NCBI GenBank assembly: GCA_024276425.1
Contig: JAJRXF010000202.1
Coordinates: 1 to 64,000 of the forward strand
Reading direction: 5' to 3'
DNA length: 64,000 nucleotides
Origin: Actinomycetes bacterium
Lineage (GTDB): Bacteria; Actinomycetota; Acidimicrobiia; Acidimicrobiales; SZUA-35
The stretch's first letter is position 1. The number at the start of each line of letters is the position of its first letter. Positions 48,700-54,370 of the stretch are shown here, one piece after another. The notes beneath the pieces were generated by a model. The model searched no databases, was not told the DNA's origin, and worked only from the letters and a program-made list of their open reading frames with translations. The position numbers and the translations under genes were made by a program.

Positions 48700-48789
48700 G
48701 CGGCAATGATAGAAGGCTTGAGTGGGCCGCGGCGAGCGCGCTACCGATACAGGAGGCCAACCGGGACTCGCAACGCTATGGTTGCATGC

Positions 48790-49089
48790 ATGAACGAGAT
48801 CACCGTTCGACGAACCTTTTCCCTACCACCCCATCGGGTCTGGCCGTCTCTGGCCGACTTGGCATGTTGGTTAGAACCAGGACTGCGATGGAGAATCGAC
48901 GAGACCGACTCGGAAGCGGGGCGACGGCTGGTGGCCCGAGTCTGGGACCAGCCGGGGTCATCCAGTCTCATCACGATCGAACTCGATGGCGACGATCTCG
49001 GAGGCTCGGTCGTCACAATTGTCCAACAGCGCGACCGTCACTTTCGCGTCGACGCCTCCCTTACTGATCAGACCATGGTCGCGACATGA
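48790..49089 (+). CDS. SRPBCC-like protein
   Basis: MNEITVRRTFSLPPHRVWPSLADLACWLEPGLRW...; overlaps an ArsR gene, as often seen for SRPBCC/ArsR pairs. Confidence 0.6.
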   Translation: MNEITVRRTFSLPPHRVWPSLADLACWLEPGLRWRIDETDSEAGRRLVARVWDQPGSSSLITIELDGDDLGGSVVTIVQQRDRHFRVDASLTDQTMVAT

Positions 49090-49448
49090 CCAATCCCTCC
49101 TCAGGCGACCCGGGGAAGGTCTTCTTTGCCCTTGCCGATCCGACGCGACGTCGGCTGCTATCGATGCTGGCCGACCAGCCACAATCCGCATCGGCATTGT
49201 CACGCCAATTCGGAATGAGTCGCCAAGCCATTTCCAAGCATCTGAATTCTCTCGAAGCCGCGGCCCTGGTTGAGCCGACTCGTGTTGGGCGTGAGGTTCG
49301 CTTTGTGCTGCAGCCCAACAGTCTACGTTCGGCCCGGGAATGGATGGAACAGGCAACAAGTGCCTGGGAGAAACGCCTGGATCGACTCGAACTTGATGTC
49401 GTGGCCCGGTCTAGCCAAGCTGGGCGGCAGCCGCCTCAATCCCCTTAG
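49086..49448 (+). CDS. ArsR family transcriptional regulator
   Basis: KVFFALADPTRRRLLSMLADQPQSASALSRQFGMSRQAISKHLNSLEAAALVEPTRVGREVRFVL. Confidence 0.92.
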   Translation: MTNPSSGDPGKVFFALADPTRRRLLSMLADQPQSASALSRQFGMSRQAISKHLNSLEAAALVEPTRVGREVRFVLQPNSLRSAREWMEQATSAWEKRLDRLELDVVARSSQAGRQPPQSP

Positions 49449-50745
49449 CCAGGAACTCAACCTCGGGTGCGGCATCCCGATCTCCGGTGACACCAAAGTA
49501 AAACTGGTCTCGGTAGCTCATTACTCCGACGCTGATGCGAACTCCGGCCACCAGTGGAATGACTGGAATCACCGAACTGAGCGGCTGGTCCAGCATAGTT
49601 ATGGTCTCACGCGGGCCGGGCGCATTGATGGTAACGGTCTCAATCCCGTCCTTGTAACTTCCAACTAACGTCGCTGCCCTGGCTCCCAGGGCACAAAGGG
49701 TCGGAGAGGCCAAGCCTCGTAAGTTCATGAGCGCGTCTCCGGCAACGGCCCGGGCATGGTCGGGGTGACTTGCCGTTTGTTCCGCCAGTTTGGTCGCCAT
49801 TGATTGCAGGTTGGCCTCGCCCACGGGGAGGTGAGCCTCCAAGGCGGTTACTTCGTTGATGAAGGCGTCCGCCGAGGCGAGGGCGAGGGGAACGAGCGAA
49901 CGAACCGATTCAGGGACAGGGGTGTTGCTGTGCTCAAACATTGATCGGAAACCAGATGACACCAGGGCCAGAACCACATCATTGGTTGAGACCTCGTACT
50001 CAGTCCGTGCTTGACGGATGGAACCGGCCTCCACCACAGCCGGATACCACCGTCGGTGTGGTCCGAGTGCACGCCTGAGACCCGTTGAGGACTGGGTCGC
50101 CAAGAGGGACGAAGCTGCCTTGGCCATTTCTTTCCAGGGTCGCGTCAGAACTCGTTTCGCCATCCGAACCTGCTCAGCCGGATCCAGCATCAGATCGGTG
50201 AGGCCTGTCCCGAGTAGTTCGTTGCCGGTCGGTACCGGGTCCGGCGCCCAACGGTCGGCTGGTCGATGGCGCGGCATTTTCACCTGGTCGACCATCAAAG
50301 CCAACGGATCGGTGCCGGACACCCCGTCAATCATCGAATGATGAGCCTTGGACATGACCGCCCATTGGCCCTTAGGTAGCCCACTGACCACCCACATTTC
50401 CCACAACGGTTTTCCTCGATCAAGGCGCTGGGACAGGATACGACCGACGAGGGTGTTGAGCGAGGACAAATCACCGCCCCGGGGTAGACCAGTATGGCGA
50501 AGATGGTAGTCCAGGTTGAACTCCGGGTCATCCACCCAAACCGGTCGCTCGATGCGAAGAGGAACTTCCATGACCCGTTGACGAAGTCTCGGTACCAGCA
50601 CCACTCGAGCCGCTACTCGCTCTTGCACTTGTTCGAACGGTGGTTCTGGACCGTCAAAGACCGCAACAGTCATCATGTGCATGGCGCAAATCTCATCTTC
50701 GAGATGAAGAAACTTGGCGTCATCTGCAGTCAGGCGTTCGATCAT
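49411..50745 (-). CDS. Wax ester synthase / diacylglycerol acyltransferase (WS/DGAT)
   Basis: HHxxxDG motif (KAHHSMIDGVSG), PRLRQRV, DPEFNLDYHLRH. Start taken at MIERLTADDAKF. Confidence 0.93.
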   Translation of the reverse strand: MIERLTADDAKFLHLEDEICAMHMMTVAVFDGPEPPFEQVQERVAARVVLVPRLRQRVMEVPLRIERPVWVDDPEFNLDYHLRHTGLPRGGDLSSLNTLVGRILSQRLDRGKPLWEMWVVSGLPKGQWAVMSKAHHSMIDGVSGTDPLALMVDQVKMPRHRPADRWAPDPVPTGNELLGTGLTDLMLDPAEQVRMAKRVLTRPWKEMAKAASSLLATQSSTGLRRALGPHRRWYPAVVEAGSIRQARTEYEVSTNDVVLALVSSGFRSMFEHSNTPVPESVRSLVPLALASADAFINEVTALEAHLPVGEANLQSMATKLAEQTASHPDHARAVAGDALMNLRGLASPTLCALGARAATLVGSYKDGIETVTINAPGPRETITMLDQPLSSVIPVIPLVAGVRISVGVMSYRDQFYFGVTGDRDAAPEVEFLAKGIEAAAAQLG

Positions 50746-50752
50746 TGGTCGC

Positions 50753-51757
50753 TCACCATCCCGGGTACGGGACATCGTCAGGGGACGCCAACAAGCGTCC
50801 TGCCTCTCGAAGCACTTCGAGAGAAATTTGATCCTTGTGATCGAGGGATTCAGCCGCCGACGAACTGGAGGCGACGAGAACCGACACCACCTTGGTTGGA
50901 TCCATCGGGTTGACCCCCACGGCCTGGGAAACCGCATCATCGGGTTCCAAGAGCAACGTAGGGATCCCTGCTTGTTCTAGAGTCCGGATCTCCGATCGCA
51001 CTTGGATGCGCGGATACATCCTTATCGCAGATTTGAGCGGTGAGTGGAAACCGACGGAATCCAACGACATTGGTGAAAGAATCACGACAAGGTCCAGATC
51101 CATCTCGGCCAATAGTCCTGCGTTGGTTGCCGAACGCATTCCTCCGTCGACGAACCGCTGGCCATGAATGGCGACCGGCTGATAGAACGCTGGGATGGCG
51201 CAACTGGCCTCGACCGCTTTGGCCACACTCACCTCCATGGCATCACGACCGAATACAAACAGCCGACCTGTGCGTAGTGATACTGCCGTAATCCAGAGCG
51301 CCTTTTCTGGCCACTGCCCGTGATGAATGGCGCTGGCTTGCTCTCCAACGACCATGGTGTCCACCCGTCCGGCAGGCAATGCTCCGGCCAGGACCGTCAA
51401 CGGACGGATCCGAAGACCACGCATGAGTTCTCGGGCCACAAGACTCATCGATGCTGGTCCGAACCAGGCACCACCAACGAGCCGCTGGCCACGCCCGGAT
51501 ACCTGGCGGAGCCTGGCCATGCCCTCTGGGTCAGTGGTCACCGACATGATTCGATCGAGCAGCTCCCCGCAGGAGACATTGCCTCGAACCATGGCAGCAA
51601 TACCAGACCCCGCCGAGGTCCCGACAATAATTTCCGCCGTGCGTGGATCCCATCCGGTGGACTCCTCCAGTGCGCTTAGGGCGCCAGCGTGGAACGAGTA
51701 TCCAGCAATCCCGCCACCTCCGAGAACCAACCCGACCCTCGGTGCCCGCCTGGTCAT
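50753..51757 (-). CDS. Patatin-like phospholipase
   Basis: GLVLGGGGIAGYSFHAGAL, GTSAGS (GXSXG) and FVDGGMRSATNAGLL (DGG). Confidence 0.93.
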   Translation of the reverse strand: MTRRAPRVGLVLGGGGIAGYSFHAGALSALEESTGWDPRTAEIIVGTSAGSGIAAMVRGNVSCGELLDRIMSVTTDPEGMARLRQVSGRGQRLVGGAWFGPASMSLVARELMRGLRIRPLTVLAGALPAGRVDTMVVGEQASAIHHGQWPEKALWITAVSLRTGRLFVFGRDAMEVSVAKAVEASCAIPAFYQPVAIHGQRFVDGGMRSATNAGLLAEMDLDLVVILSPMSLDSVGFHSPLKSAIRMYPRIQVRSEIRTLEQAGIPTLLLEPDDAVSQAVGVNPMDPTKVVSVLVASSSSAAESLDHKDQISLEVLREAGRLLASPDDVPYPGW

Positions 51758-52155
51758 CAGTCTTCTTCGTTAGCTGCGAGGAACGACCGATACACACCGA
51801 GCAGGGCCTTCTTTTGGTCATCGTTCAACCCCGGATCGCAACGAATAGCACTCTCGGTGTCTGATGCATCGGGCTGGCTGCCAGCAGTCTCTCCGATCAG
51901 TCCCGCATAGGCCAACATCGTCTCGGCCTGAATGTTGAGGGCCTTGGCCATAGCCTTGACGACGCGAAGCGAGGGCTCATGGAGCCCACGCTCAATCTGG
52001 CTGACGTAGGGGTCAGACAGATTTGTCAACTTCGCTAGTTCTCGCTGAGACAGATTGGCTAGTTTGCGCTGAGTCTTGATGAACGCGCCAAGCCGACCCG
52101 ATGAGTCATCGGTTTCATCGCTCTTGGACTTGCCCTCGCTGTGCTTTTTGGTCAC
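51757..52155 (-). CDS. XRE family helix-turn-helix regulator
   Basis: LGAFIKTQRKLANLSQRELAKLTNLSDPYVSQIERGLHEPSLRVVKAMAKALNI. Stop overlaps patatin start (TGATG). Confidence 0.92.
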   Translation of the reverse strand: MTKKHSEGKSKSDETDDSSGRLGAFIKTQRKLANLSQRELAKLTNLSDPYVSQIERGLHEPSLRVVKAMAKALNIQAETMLAYAGLIGETAGSQPDASDTESAIRCDPGLNDDQKKALLGVYRSFLAANEED

Positions 52156-52191
52156 CAGGAAATCTCGATCGAAAGTCTTAACCCTAAGTTC

Positions 52192-52632
52192 TTACTTCTT
52201 CGTATCGGTGGAAACGGCCTTGGCCACAGTCTTTCGAGCAGGCTTTCTTGTGGCCCTCTTAGTCGAAGTCGCCTTGGCTGTGGTCTTCTTGGTGGCCGCA
52301 GTCTTGACTGTGGCCTTCTTGGTGGCCGCAGTCTTGGCCTGCTTTTTAGCTGGGTACCACACGCTTACTAGCTCGGTGGCGAACTTACGGTTTGCCTTGG
52401 TGGCCCGCTCAACGAGATCGAAATAGGTATCAACGGCGACAGACGGTGTTGGGATGCGGTCGGCGATGGAATCAACCAGGGGAAGGTCGGGAATCGTGGG
52501 GACTCGTTCACCAAACTTGTCATTGACCTGGGTGGCAAGCTTCTTGTTGGTTTTAAGAACTTGAGACTGGACCGATCCGATGGTTTCGAGAATCTGGTCT
52601 TGAACGGTTTCTATGGCTTCGAGGACGGGCAT
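52192..52632 (-). CDS. HBHA/phasin-like protein with Lys/Ala-rich tail (candidate lipid-droplet surface or DNA-binding protein)
   Basis: Helical N-terminal half, then KKQAKTAATKKATVKTAATKKTTAKATSTKRATRKPARKTVAKAVSTDTKK; adjacent to an XRE regulator. Confidence 0.6.
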   Translation of the reverse strand: MPVLEAIETVQDQILETIGSVQSQVLKTNKKLATQVNDKFGERVPTIPDLPLVDSIADRIPTPSVAVDTYFDLVERATKANRKFATELVSVWYPAKKQAKTAATKKATVKTAATKKTTAKATSTKRATRKPARKTVAKAVSTDTKK

Positions 52633-52662
52633 GATTTAAGCTCCATTTGTAGGTTACGCTAG

Positions 52663-52719
52663 TGCGAAATATAGTACGCATGCTCGTGAACAGCAAGGAT
52701 TTGCGAAGAATAGTTCGCA
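52663..52719. promoter_or_regulatory. Two palindromic elements: TGCGAAATATAGTACGCA (52663-52680) and TGCGAAGAATAGTTCGCA (52702-52719)
   Basis: Near-identical 18-bp dyads 39 bp apart in the divergent promoter between the HBHA-like and second WS/DGAT genes. Confidence 0.7.
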
Positions 52720-54272
52720 TGACAGATGGCACACGAAGCAAAACGATAAGTGAGCAGGCCACGATGAGCAGAGAGACTGACGGGGATCCAGAAAAGACAA
52801 CACCAGACCCCATGTCGGACTTTGAGACGCTCATGTGGAATTTGGAGGCGGACCCTTGGCTCAATCCCAGCGGCGCGCTGATTACTATCCTCGACCGACC
52901 GGTTAAGCCCACTCACTTCCGACGAAGCATCCAACAGGCAGTCTTTTCAGTCCCCCGGCTACGTCAACGGGTCGTCCCACCGCCGACCAAGCTTACGACA
53001 CCAGGCTGGGAAACAGACCCGGAGTTCGACCTGGATTACCACCTGAGGGCCCTCGCCCTGCCCTCTTCAGCCTGTTCTCTTTCCGATCTACTCTCGCTCG
53101 GGGCATGGCTCTACCAACAGCCTTACGACCGGTCTCGACCACTGTGGCAAATCATCACCATAGAAGGCCTGGAAGGCGGGAAAGGTGCCGTGTTTTGGAA
53201 ACTGCACCACACCATTGGCGACGCGACCACGATGATGAAAATGCAAGAGTTCTATATGCAGCTCAAACGCCGGGAGAAGCTGCCAGACAAGGTCAATCTC
53301 ACTCAACTCTTTGCTAAGGAGGTCGCCGCTCAACCCTCCCGAAGTCACAACCCGGTGGATGAGTTAGCCGAGACAGCGGCCTCAACCTTTGGTACCTTGG
53401 CAAAGCGGCAGACAAACCTCCTTCGGCGGGCCCTCGGAGAGGTCATGCTTTGGGGCGCCGACCCCGTTCGGGCCAAGGAGTTCGGCCAAGACACCATTCA
53501 CAAGGCAGCCTCCACCATCGATCAACTGCGCGGGGCCGGCACCGATTCCAGAACCGAGCCAAGCCATGCCGAAACCAACGGAGGCGGGTCCCCGCTCTGG
53601 CGAGCACGCTCGCGACATCGCCAGATTGAGGCTCTCCAGCTACCGCTGGATACGGCGAAGGCAACCGCCAAGACTCTCGGAGGATCACTAAACGACTTCT
53701 TCGTGGCGGGAGCTGTGATTGGTTCGCTGGCCTACCACACTCAACGCGATCAGCCAATCGACTGGTTGAATCTCAGTTTCGTCGTCAGCACTCGCAAATC
53801 AGACGATGATCGCGCCAATGCATTCACCCCAATGCGGCTCGAGGCCCCGGGGACCGAAATGTCCCTCACGGAGCGGTTCGGCGATCTGAAGACTCGAATG
53901 CGAACAAAAAAGGATGCGGCAAAGACCGGTGCTGGCATGTCCTCGCTAGCGGGGGCGGCCAACCTTCTGCCAGGATCCCTAGTCTCCGCAGTTGCACGCA
54001 AGCAAGCGGCAGGAGTCGACTTCGCCACCTCAAATTTTCGGGGTGCCCCCGTTCAAGTCTTCATTTCCGGTGGGAAACTAGTCCAGAACATCCCGATCGG
54101 GCCGGTGGCTGGAACCGCGTTCAACCTGACACTCATGTCCTACGACAACAGTCTGGATCTGGGGATCACCATTGACCCAGTAGCGGTGGAAGATCCCGCT
54201 GGCCTTCGCCTCTGCATTGAGCGGGCTTATGAAGATCTGACCCAAGAAGCAACCCAGATGGGCAACGGTTGA
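52719..54272 (+). CDS. WS/DGAT family acyltransferase, HHxxxDA variant
   Basis: LHHTIGDATTMM; SVPRLRQRVVPPP; DPEFDLDYHLRAL; C-terminal FNLTLMSYDNSLDLGITIDP. Start uncertain (52719 or 52764). Confidence 0.85.
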   Translation: MTDGTRSKTISEQATMSRETDGDPEKTTPDPMSDFETLMWNLEADPWLNPSGALITILDRPVKPTHFRRSIQQAVFSVPRLRQRVVPPPTKLTTPGWETDPEFDLDYHLRALALPSSACSLSDLLSLGAWLYQQPYDRSRPLWQIITIEGLEGGKGAVFWKLHHTIGDATTMMKMQEFYMQLKRREKLPDKVNLTQLFAKEVAAQPSRSHNPVDELAETAASTFGTLAKRQTNLLRRALGEVMLWGADPVRAKEFGQDTIHKAASTIDQLRGAGTDSRTEPSHAETNGGGSPLWRARSRHRQIEALQLPLDTAKATAKTLGGSLNDFFVAGAVIGSLAYHTQRDQPIDWLNLSFVVSTRKSDDDRANAFTPMRLEAPGTEMSLTERFGDLKTRMRTKKDAAKTGAGMSSLAGAANLLPGSLVSAVARKQAAGVDFATSNFRGAPVQVFISGGKLVQNIPIGPVAGTAFNLTLMSYDNSLDLGITIDPVAVEDPAGLRLCIERAYEDLTQEATQMGNG

Positions 54273-54294: not shown

Positions 54295-54370
54295 TGGAGC
54301 GGACGACCAGATTCGAACTGGCGACCCCAACCTTGGCAAGGTTGTGCTCTACCAACTGAGCTACGTCCGC
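54295..54370 (-). tRNA. tRNA-Gly (anticodon GCC), CCA encoded
   Basis: GCGGACGTAGCTCAGTTGGTAGAGCACAACCTTGCCAAGGTTGGGGTCGCCAGTTCGAATCTGGTCGTCCGCTCCA; loop TTGCCAA. Confidence 0.96.

Follow-up and report, generated by a model that had tools for sequence, protein, structure and literature searches.

A probable self-contained neutral-lipid storage locus with a phasin-like coat protein and a candidate autoregulator in an Acidimicrobiales bacterium

What function unites two acyltransferases, a lipase, a DNA-binding regulator and a small lysine- and alanine-rich protein that are encoded side by side in an Acidimicrobiales draft genome of 3.95 Mb? A preliminary description of the window, by which we mean the whole 64,000-nucleotide stretch of DNA that was analysed, had read these genes as one module for the synthesis, mobilisation, coating and control of storage lipid, with an HBHA-like protein as the coat. 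The order of transcription on the minus strand is phasin-like granule-coat protein (52192-52632, 146 aa), XRE-family regulator (51757-52155, 132 aa, GTG start), patatin-like lipase (50753-51757, 334 aa) and, last in the operon, a wax ester synthase/diacylglycerol acyltransferase, WS/DGAT-1 (49411-50745, 444 aa), while WS/DGAT-2 diverges from the operator region on the plus strand (52764-54272, with a domain-consistent start at ATG 52764). A gap of 36 nt separates the phasin-like and XRE genes, the XRE stop codon overlaps the patatin ATG by 1 nt (TGATG), and 7 nt lie between patatin and WS/DGAT-1. A longer, 509-aa ORF for WS/DGAT-1 is an over-extension, and we place its start at ATG 50745. Coordinates, junctions and Pfam matches agree with the preliminary description on all five genes and their places, the divergent WS/DGAT included. 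In the flanks, a tRNA-Gly (gcc) gene found by ARAGORN lies directly downstream of WS/DGAT-2 (54295-54370, minus strand). At the other end, the plus strand at 48706-49448 carries an ORF whose N-terminal part resembles SRPBCC weakly, under the cut-off; it shares 4 nt with the start of an ArsR/SmtB-type regulator gene (49086-49448), and that gene in turn shares 38 nt with the 3' end of WS/DGAT-1.

WS/DGAT-1 carries every feature by which a WS/DGAT is recognised, namely the WS_DGAT_cat (PF03007, 184.5 bits) and WS_DGAT_C (PF06974, 53 bits) domains of Pfam, an HHxxxDG motif in the form HHSMIDG, and a TIGR02946 score of 315 bits, above the cut-off, and its solved relatives 7nxg and 6chj are found at E about 1e-25. 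Both domains are also present in WS/DGAT-2 (PF03007, 137.3 bits; PF06974, 53 bits), which scores 217 bits against TIGR02946, under the cut-off of 310, possesses a variant active-site motif, HHTIGDA, in which the final glycine is replaced by alanine, and is 26% identical to WS/DGAT-1. Three WS/DGAT genes are found in the host genome as a whole. The patatin (PF01734, 70.2 bits) has a GTSAG nucleophile motif and a DGG motif. No match to class I/II PHA synthase (PhaC_N) or to class III PhaC was found in the host genome, which is 96% complete, and the stored product is therefore probably TAG or wax ester. The two WS/DGAT enzymes would make this lipid, and the patatin would free fatty acids from it. 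Taken with the evidence on the coat protein, gene neighbourhood and operators given below, we consider it fairly likely that the five genes make up a self-contained locus for storing neutral lipid (TAG and/or wax ester), with its own coat protein and autoregulator.

We name the 146-aa protein phasin-like by its build and context, not by an established family. A Pfam profile search returned no family match for it above any cut-off, public profiles gave no Phasin_2 match, and a PDB sequence search produced nothing usable. Two amphipathic helices, at about residues 2-43 and 63-92, have hydrophobic moments above those of shuffled sequence (p about 0.001-0.003) and are accompanied by a 53-residue Lys/Ala/Thr tail with a net charge of about +17. 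An AlphaFold2 model comprises the same two helices and a disordered tail, with a pLDDT of 70, best at residues 63-92, and a low pTM of 0.33. The family, 39 aligned proteins encoded beside XRE genes, is short and divergent, sharing a conserved helix (VDxxFDF...RxF) and a tail that ranges from absent to at least 50 residues; four of the 39 reach Phasin_2, all at E >= 0.017 and below the curated cut-off. Binding to a granule is consistent with the amphipathic helices and with the PhaC or WS/DGAT linkage of the loci, and the protein may coat the droplet via its helices while the basic tail may tether the droplet to DNA.

That tail also invites a reading in which the Lys/Ala-rich protein belongs chiefly to the nucleoid, with the locus tying membrane-lipid remodelling, by acyltransferases and a phospholipase, to DNA instead of serving storage. 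Three family members match histone H1-like HC2 through the tail, and a sequence search for solved relatives of the patatin found PlpD alone. We nevertheless regard this reading as improbable, as many family members keep the helical core but have a short tail or none, and the PHA synthase genes linked to the pair in relatives speak for storage granules. The HBHA-like label of the preliminary description fared unevenly. The build (amphipathic helices and a Lys/Ala-rich C-terminal tail) and the position beside an XRE regulator, an adjacency seen in 48 loci, are indeed of HBHA/MLDS type, but the core is not: a profile-profile comparison (hhalign) of the tail-less cores with HBHA/MLDS gave a probability of 0.9%, on which we reject homology, and, over 80 named loci, the phasin-like and HBHA/MLDS core profiles do not pick out the same ones.

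Homologues of the XRE regulator occur in 125 of the 149 genomes of the order sample, and in the named collection many of its best relatives come from MAGs that bear the label Acidimicrobiia or Acidimicrobiales, a distribution that makes the lineage assumed for the window plausible. We classed 100 loci around XRE homologues, drawn from order, family and class searches, together with the window by the gene directly upstream, which was phasin-like in 48 of the 101, RsiG-like in 34 (assigned by profile, with PF22802 confirmed for two) and neither in 19. Linkage here means that a gene is present inside the fetched stretch around the XRE gene. WS/DGAT genes are linked to 15 of the 48 phasin-XRE loci and to none of the 34 RsiG-XRE loci (Fisher p = 2e-4). 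By chance alone, in a genome that has 2-9 WS/DGAT genes, one of them would be expected in any particular 14-kb stretch with a probability of about 1-4%. Patatin shows a similar split (14/48 versus 0/34) and accompanies WS/DGAT, being present in 11 of 15 loci with a WS/DGAT gene and 3 of 33 without (p = 2e-5). The complete same-strand order phasin-XRE-patatin-WS/DGAT recurs in eight loci (the window, L049, L054, L056, L073, L077, L236 and L243), of which L236 and L243 are named MAG loci. Of the five-gene neighbourhood expected at the outset, the four-gene operon is thus conserved in part of the lineage, while the divergent fifth gene occurs in fewer genomes. Counting against the storage-operon reading, 21 of the 48 phasin-XRE loci have no WS/DGAT and no PhaC_N linked to them. 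The weak phasin homology and low pTM of the coat protein, and the variant motif and sub-threshold TIGR02946 score of WS/DGAT-2, count against it as well.

The same survey bears on whether the phasin-XRE pair is instead a PHA-granule system that WS/DGAT and patatin adjoin merely as general lipid genes. PhaC or PhaC-like genes are linked to 15 of the 48 phasin-XRE loci and to none of the 34 RsiG-XRE loci, a count that falls to 12 of 48 for PhaC_N, as L053, L085 and L089 lack this domain and resemble class III PhaC below cut-off. The pair lies beside a PHA synthase in many relatives, including Mycobacterium sp. SM1 (L222), and the window XRE groups with PhaC-linked XREs. Against this stand the missing PhaC_N and class III PhaC matches in the window's own genome, on which we disfavour a PHA granule in the host organism, the mutual exclusion of WS/DGAT and PhaC_N linkage (together in 0 of 48 loci, p = 0.009), and the recurrence in eight loci of an operon with 1-nt and short junctions. 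A PHA-granule system at this locus therefore seems unlikely to us, though less so than the nucleoid alternative. Separately, in L085, L089, L227 and L229 patatin and a class III-like PhaC lie close together 4-6 kb downstream from the phasin-XRE pair, which suggests that the patatin may also serve polyester granules, and the phasin-XRE-PhaC cluster of L222 (7585-10280) is separate in kind from the Rv0474-HBHA pair.

The phasin-XRE loci share a candidate operator. A palindromic EM search of the 1100 bp upstream of the HTH at the 48 phasin-type loci yielded, de novo, the 18-bp palindrome TGC[TG]AA[CG]TATA[GC]TT[AC]GCA, with an EM score of 861 versus 390-405 for shuffled sequence. A site of at least 7 bits is found at 47 of the 48 loci, the motif having been built and counted on the same loci, and the palindrome is also present upstream at many named phasin-XRE loci left out of training; among RsiG-XRE loci, 33 of 34 were below the 7-bit listing threshold and L146 alone reached 7.0. 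The window contains two such sites in its divergent promoter region, the phasin-proximal O1 (52663-52680, TGCGTACTATATTTCGCA on the minus strand, 28.2 bits) and the WS/DGAT-2-proximal O2 (52702-52719, TGCGAACTATTCTTCGCA on the minus strand, 27.5 bits), both inside the stretch that had been proposed for EMSA (52633-52764). They lie 39 bp apart, and paired sites at 39-40 bp occur in at least nine phasin-type loci (the window, L049, L052, L054, L056, L058, L073, L077 and L088). Apart from O1 and O2, no site with two or fewer mismatches occurs in the 3.95-Mb host genome. Across 14 genomes, every exact consensus match falls at the phasin-XRE locus, with 6 of the 14 having no exact match and a reversed-pattern control returning zero matches. 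We therefore disfavour a wide XRE regulon, since the palindrome is confined to this locus. Gene families, conserved operon and locus-limited palindrome support the earlier proposal of one conserved, self-regulated neutral-lipid module. Within O1, a -10-like TATATT in the phasin direction, seen by eye, is consistent with steric control; overlap between operator and promoter rests on this by-eye element, as a sigma-70 scan of the intergenic stretch found no promoter.

The regulator itself comprises an HTH_3 domain (58.3 bits in Pfam) and a conserved C-terminal segment, has only HTH/XRE-type Pfam matches of weight, and gave no match to the PhaR DNA-binding domain. Its XRE homology and upstream palindrome support the earlier suggestion that it is homologous to regulators of the Rv0474/MLDSR type. 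Most regulator genes that neighbour HBHA/MLDS-type proteins, in Mycobacteriales, Streptomyces, Jiangella and others, are also closely preceded by a site that scores 11-25 bits with the motif, which was trained on phasin-XRE loci only; GTGCTTGCAATAGTTAGCAC in L200 is one such site. The half-sites of the motif resemble those of the palindromic box GNT(T/A)GCTNNTGCTANC upstream of mldsr-mlds, to which MLDSR was shown experimentally to bind (PMC5504291). Could the locus then be a plain member of the HBHA/MLDS-MLDSR system? The architecture is alike, the regulator families are homologous and a related palindrome lies upstream, but the core comparison and the separate loci marked by the two core profiles argue against it, the gene order is reversed here, with the coat gene first, and the window regulator falls outside the HBHA/MLDS-linked clade. 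The last point comes from a quickly built tree (111 XRE proteins and 120 columns, with many of its forks open), in which a branch with support 97 places phasin-linked XREs on one side and RsiG-linked and HBHA/MLDS-linked XREs on the other. We hold simple membership to be very doubtful, about on a par with the nucleoid reading.

Within the phasin side of this tree, where the window XRE groups with XREs linked to phasins and PHA synthase, parsimony counts seven changes between WS/DGAT and PhaC linkage. The starred branches alone account for at least three changes of the WS/DGAT label and at least five of the PhaC label, which in this count still took in class III-like cases. This suggests repeated exchange of WS/DGAT and PhaC, a pattern sensitive to poor tree resolution and contig ends. 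We lean slightly towards the view that phasin, XRE and operator form a cargo-swappable granule switch that evolution has joined time and again to PHA synthase in some cases and to WS/DGAT with patatin in others, which would leave chemically different storage bodies under a single kind of surface sensor. Four PHA loci (L084, L091, L095 and L097) even mirror the window topology, with a divergent PhaC followed by phasin, XRE and PhaC. In the paralogous branch, an RsiG-like gene (PF22802) immediately precedes the XRE gene in 34 of the 101 loci, including L063, L065 and L116, and the RsiG-like product carries the motif E-x3-S-x2-R-x3-Q-x3-D typical of the c-di-GMP-binding anti-sigma factor; this rsiG-XRE pair is conserved without the palindrome and may merit study.

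For the storage locus that we favour, a mechanism may be proposed from sequence and analogy. The XRE would bind the two 18-bp palindromes between the divergent genes, controlling both directions and therefore also its own synthesis. Lipid droplets sequester MLDSR in Rhodococcus (PMC5504291), and by analogy with this regulator, and with PhaR in PHA producers, the droplet surface may take up free XRE, such that titration would make coat protein and enzymes track the amount of droplet. The XRE may act in either sense, since MLDSR both activates and represses. Such a locus would provide a compact, testable circuit for the building and regulation of oil droplets beyond the oleaginous rhodococci, and its candidate operator is defined and occurs nowhere else in the host genome. 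It appears that the phasin-XRE pair can be reused as a control unit of storage granules, and two kinds of droplet or granule coat protein, both paired with one regulator family, can now be told apart. If the cassette senses the granule surface whatever its content, this would explain how a storage polymer could change without new control, and engineers of oil or bioplastic storage would gain a simple device.

Our search of the open literature found no description of an arrangement in which WS/DGAT and patatin are joined to a phasin-XRE unit, which is no proof of novelty, and several known systems share parts of the arrangement. WS/DGAT Kennedy-pathway clusters of Acidimicrobiia (PMC10351704) are lipid loci of the same class of bacteria, but contain AGPAT and acyl-CoA synthetase, and the text describing them does not mention the phasin-XRE-patatin arrangement. 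PhaR-PhaP systems (PMC12542648, PMC9049629) likewise combine a granule-coat phasin with a granule-binding regulator, although PhaR belongs to another protein family, the window product is probably neutral lipid, and the read-out of the granule surface is only proposed here. PhaF of Pseudomonas putida joins a phasin domain to a histone-like AAKP tail that binds DNA (PMC5658603), and so resembles the window protein in its helical granule-binding part and histone-like Lys/Ala tail; the two have no detectable sequence family match, and PhaF serves PHA where TAG or wax ester is probable here. Closest are MLDS-MLDSR of Rhodococcus jostii (PMC5504291) and Rv0474-HBHA of mycobacteria (L195-L200), in which an XRE regulator of the same superfamily shares an operon with a droplet protein that is small, helical and often rich in Lys, downstream of a palindrome with TGC/GCA ends, present in two operator copies in both Rhodococcus and the window. 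Unlike in these systems, the coat protein of the window is not homologous by profile comparison, its regulator derives from another XRE branch, the coat gene precedes the regulator, and the locus includes WS/DGAT and patatin.
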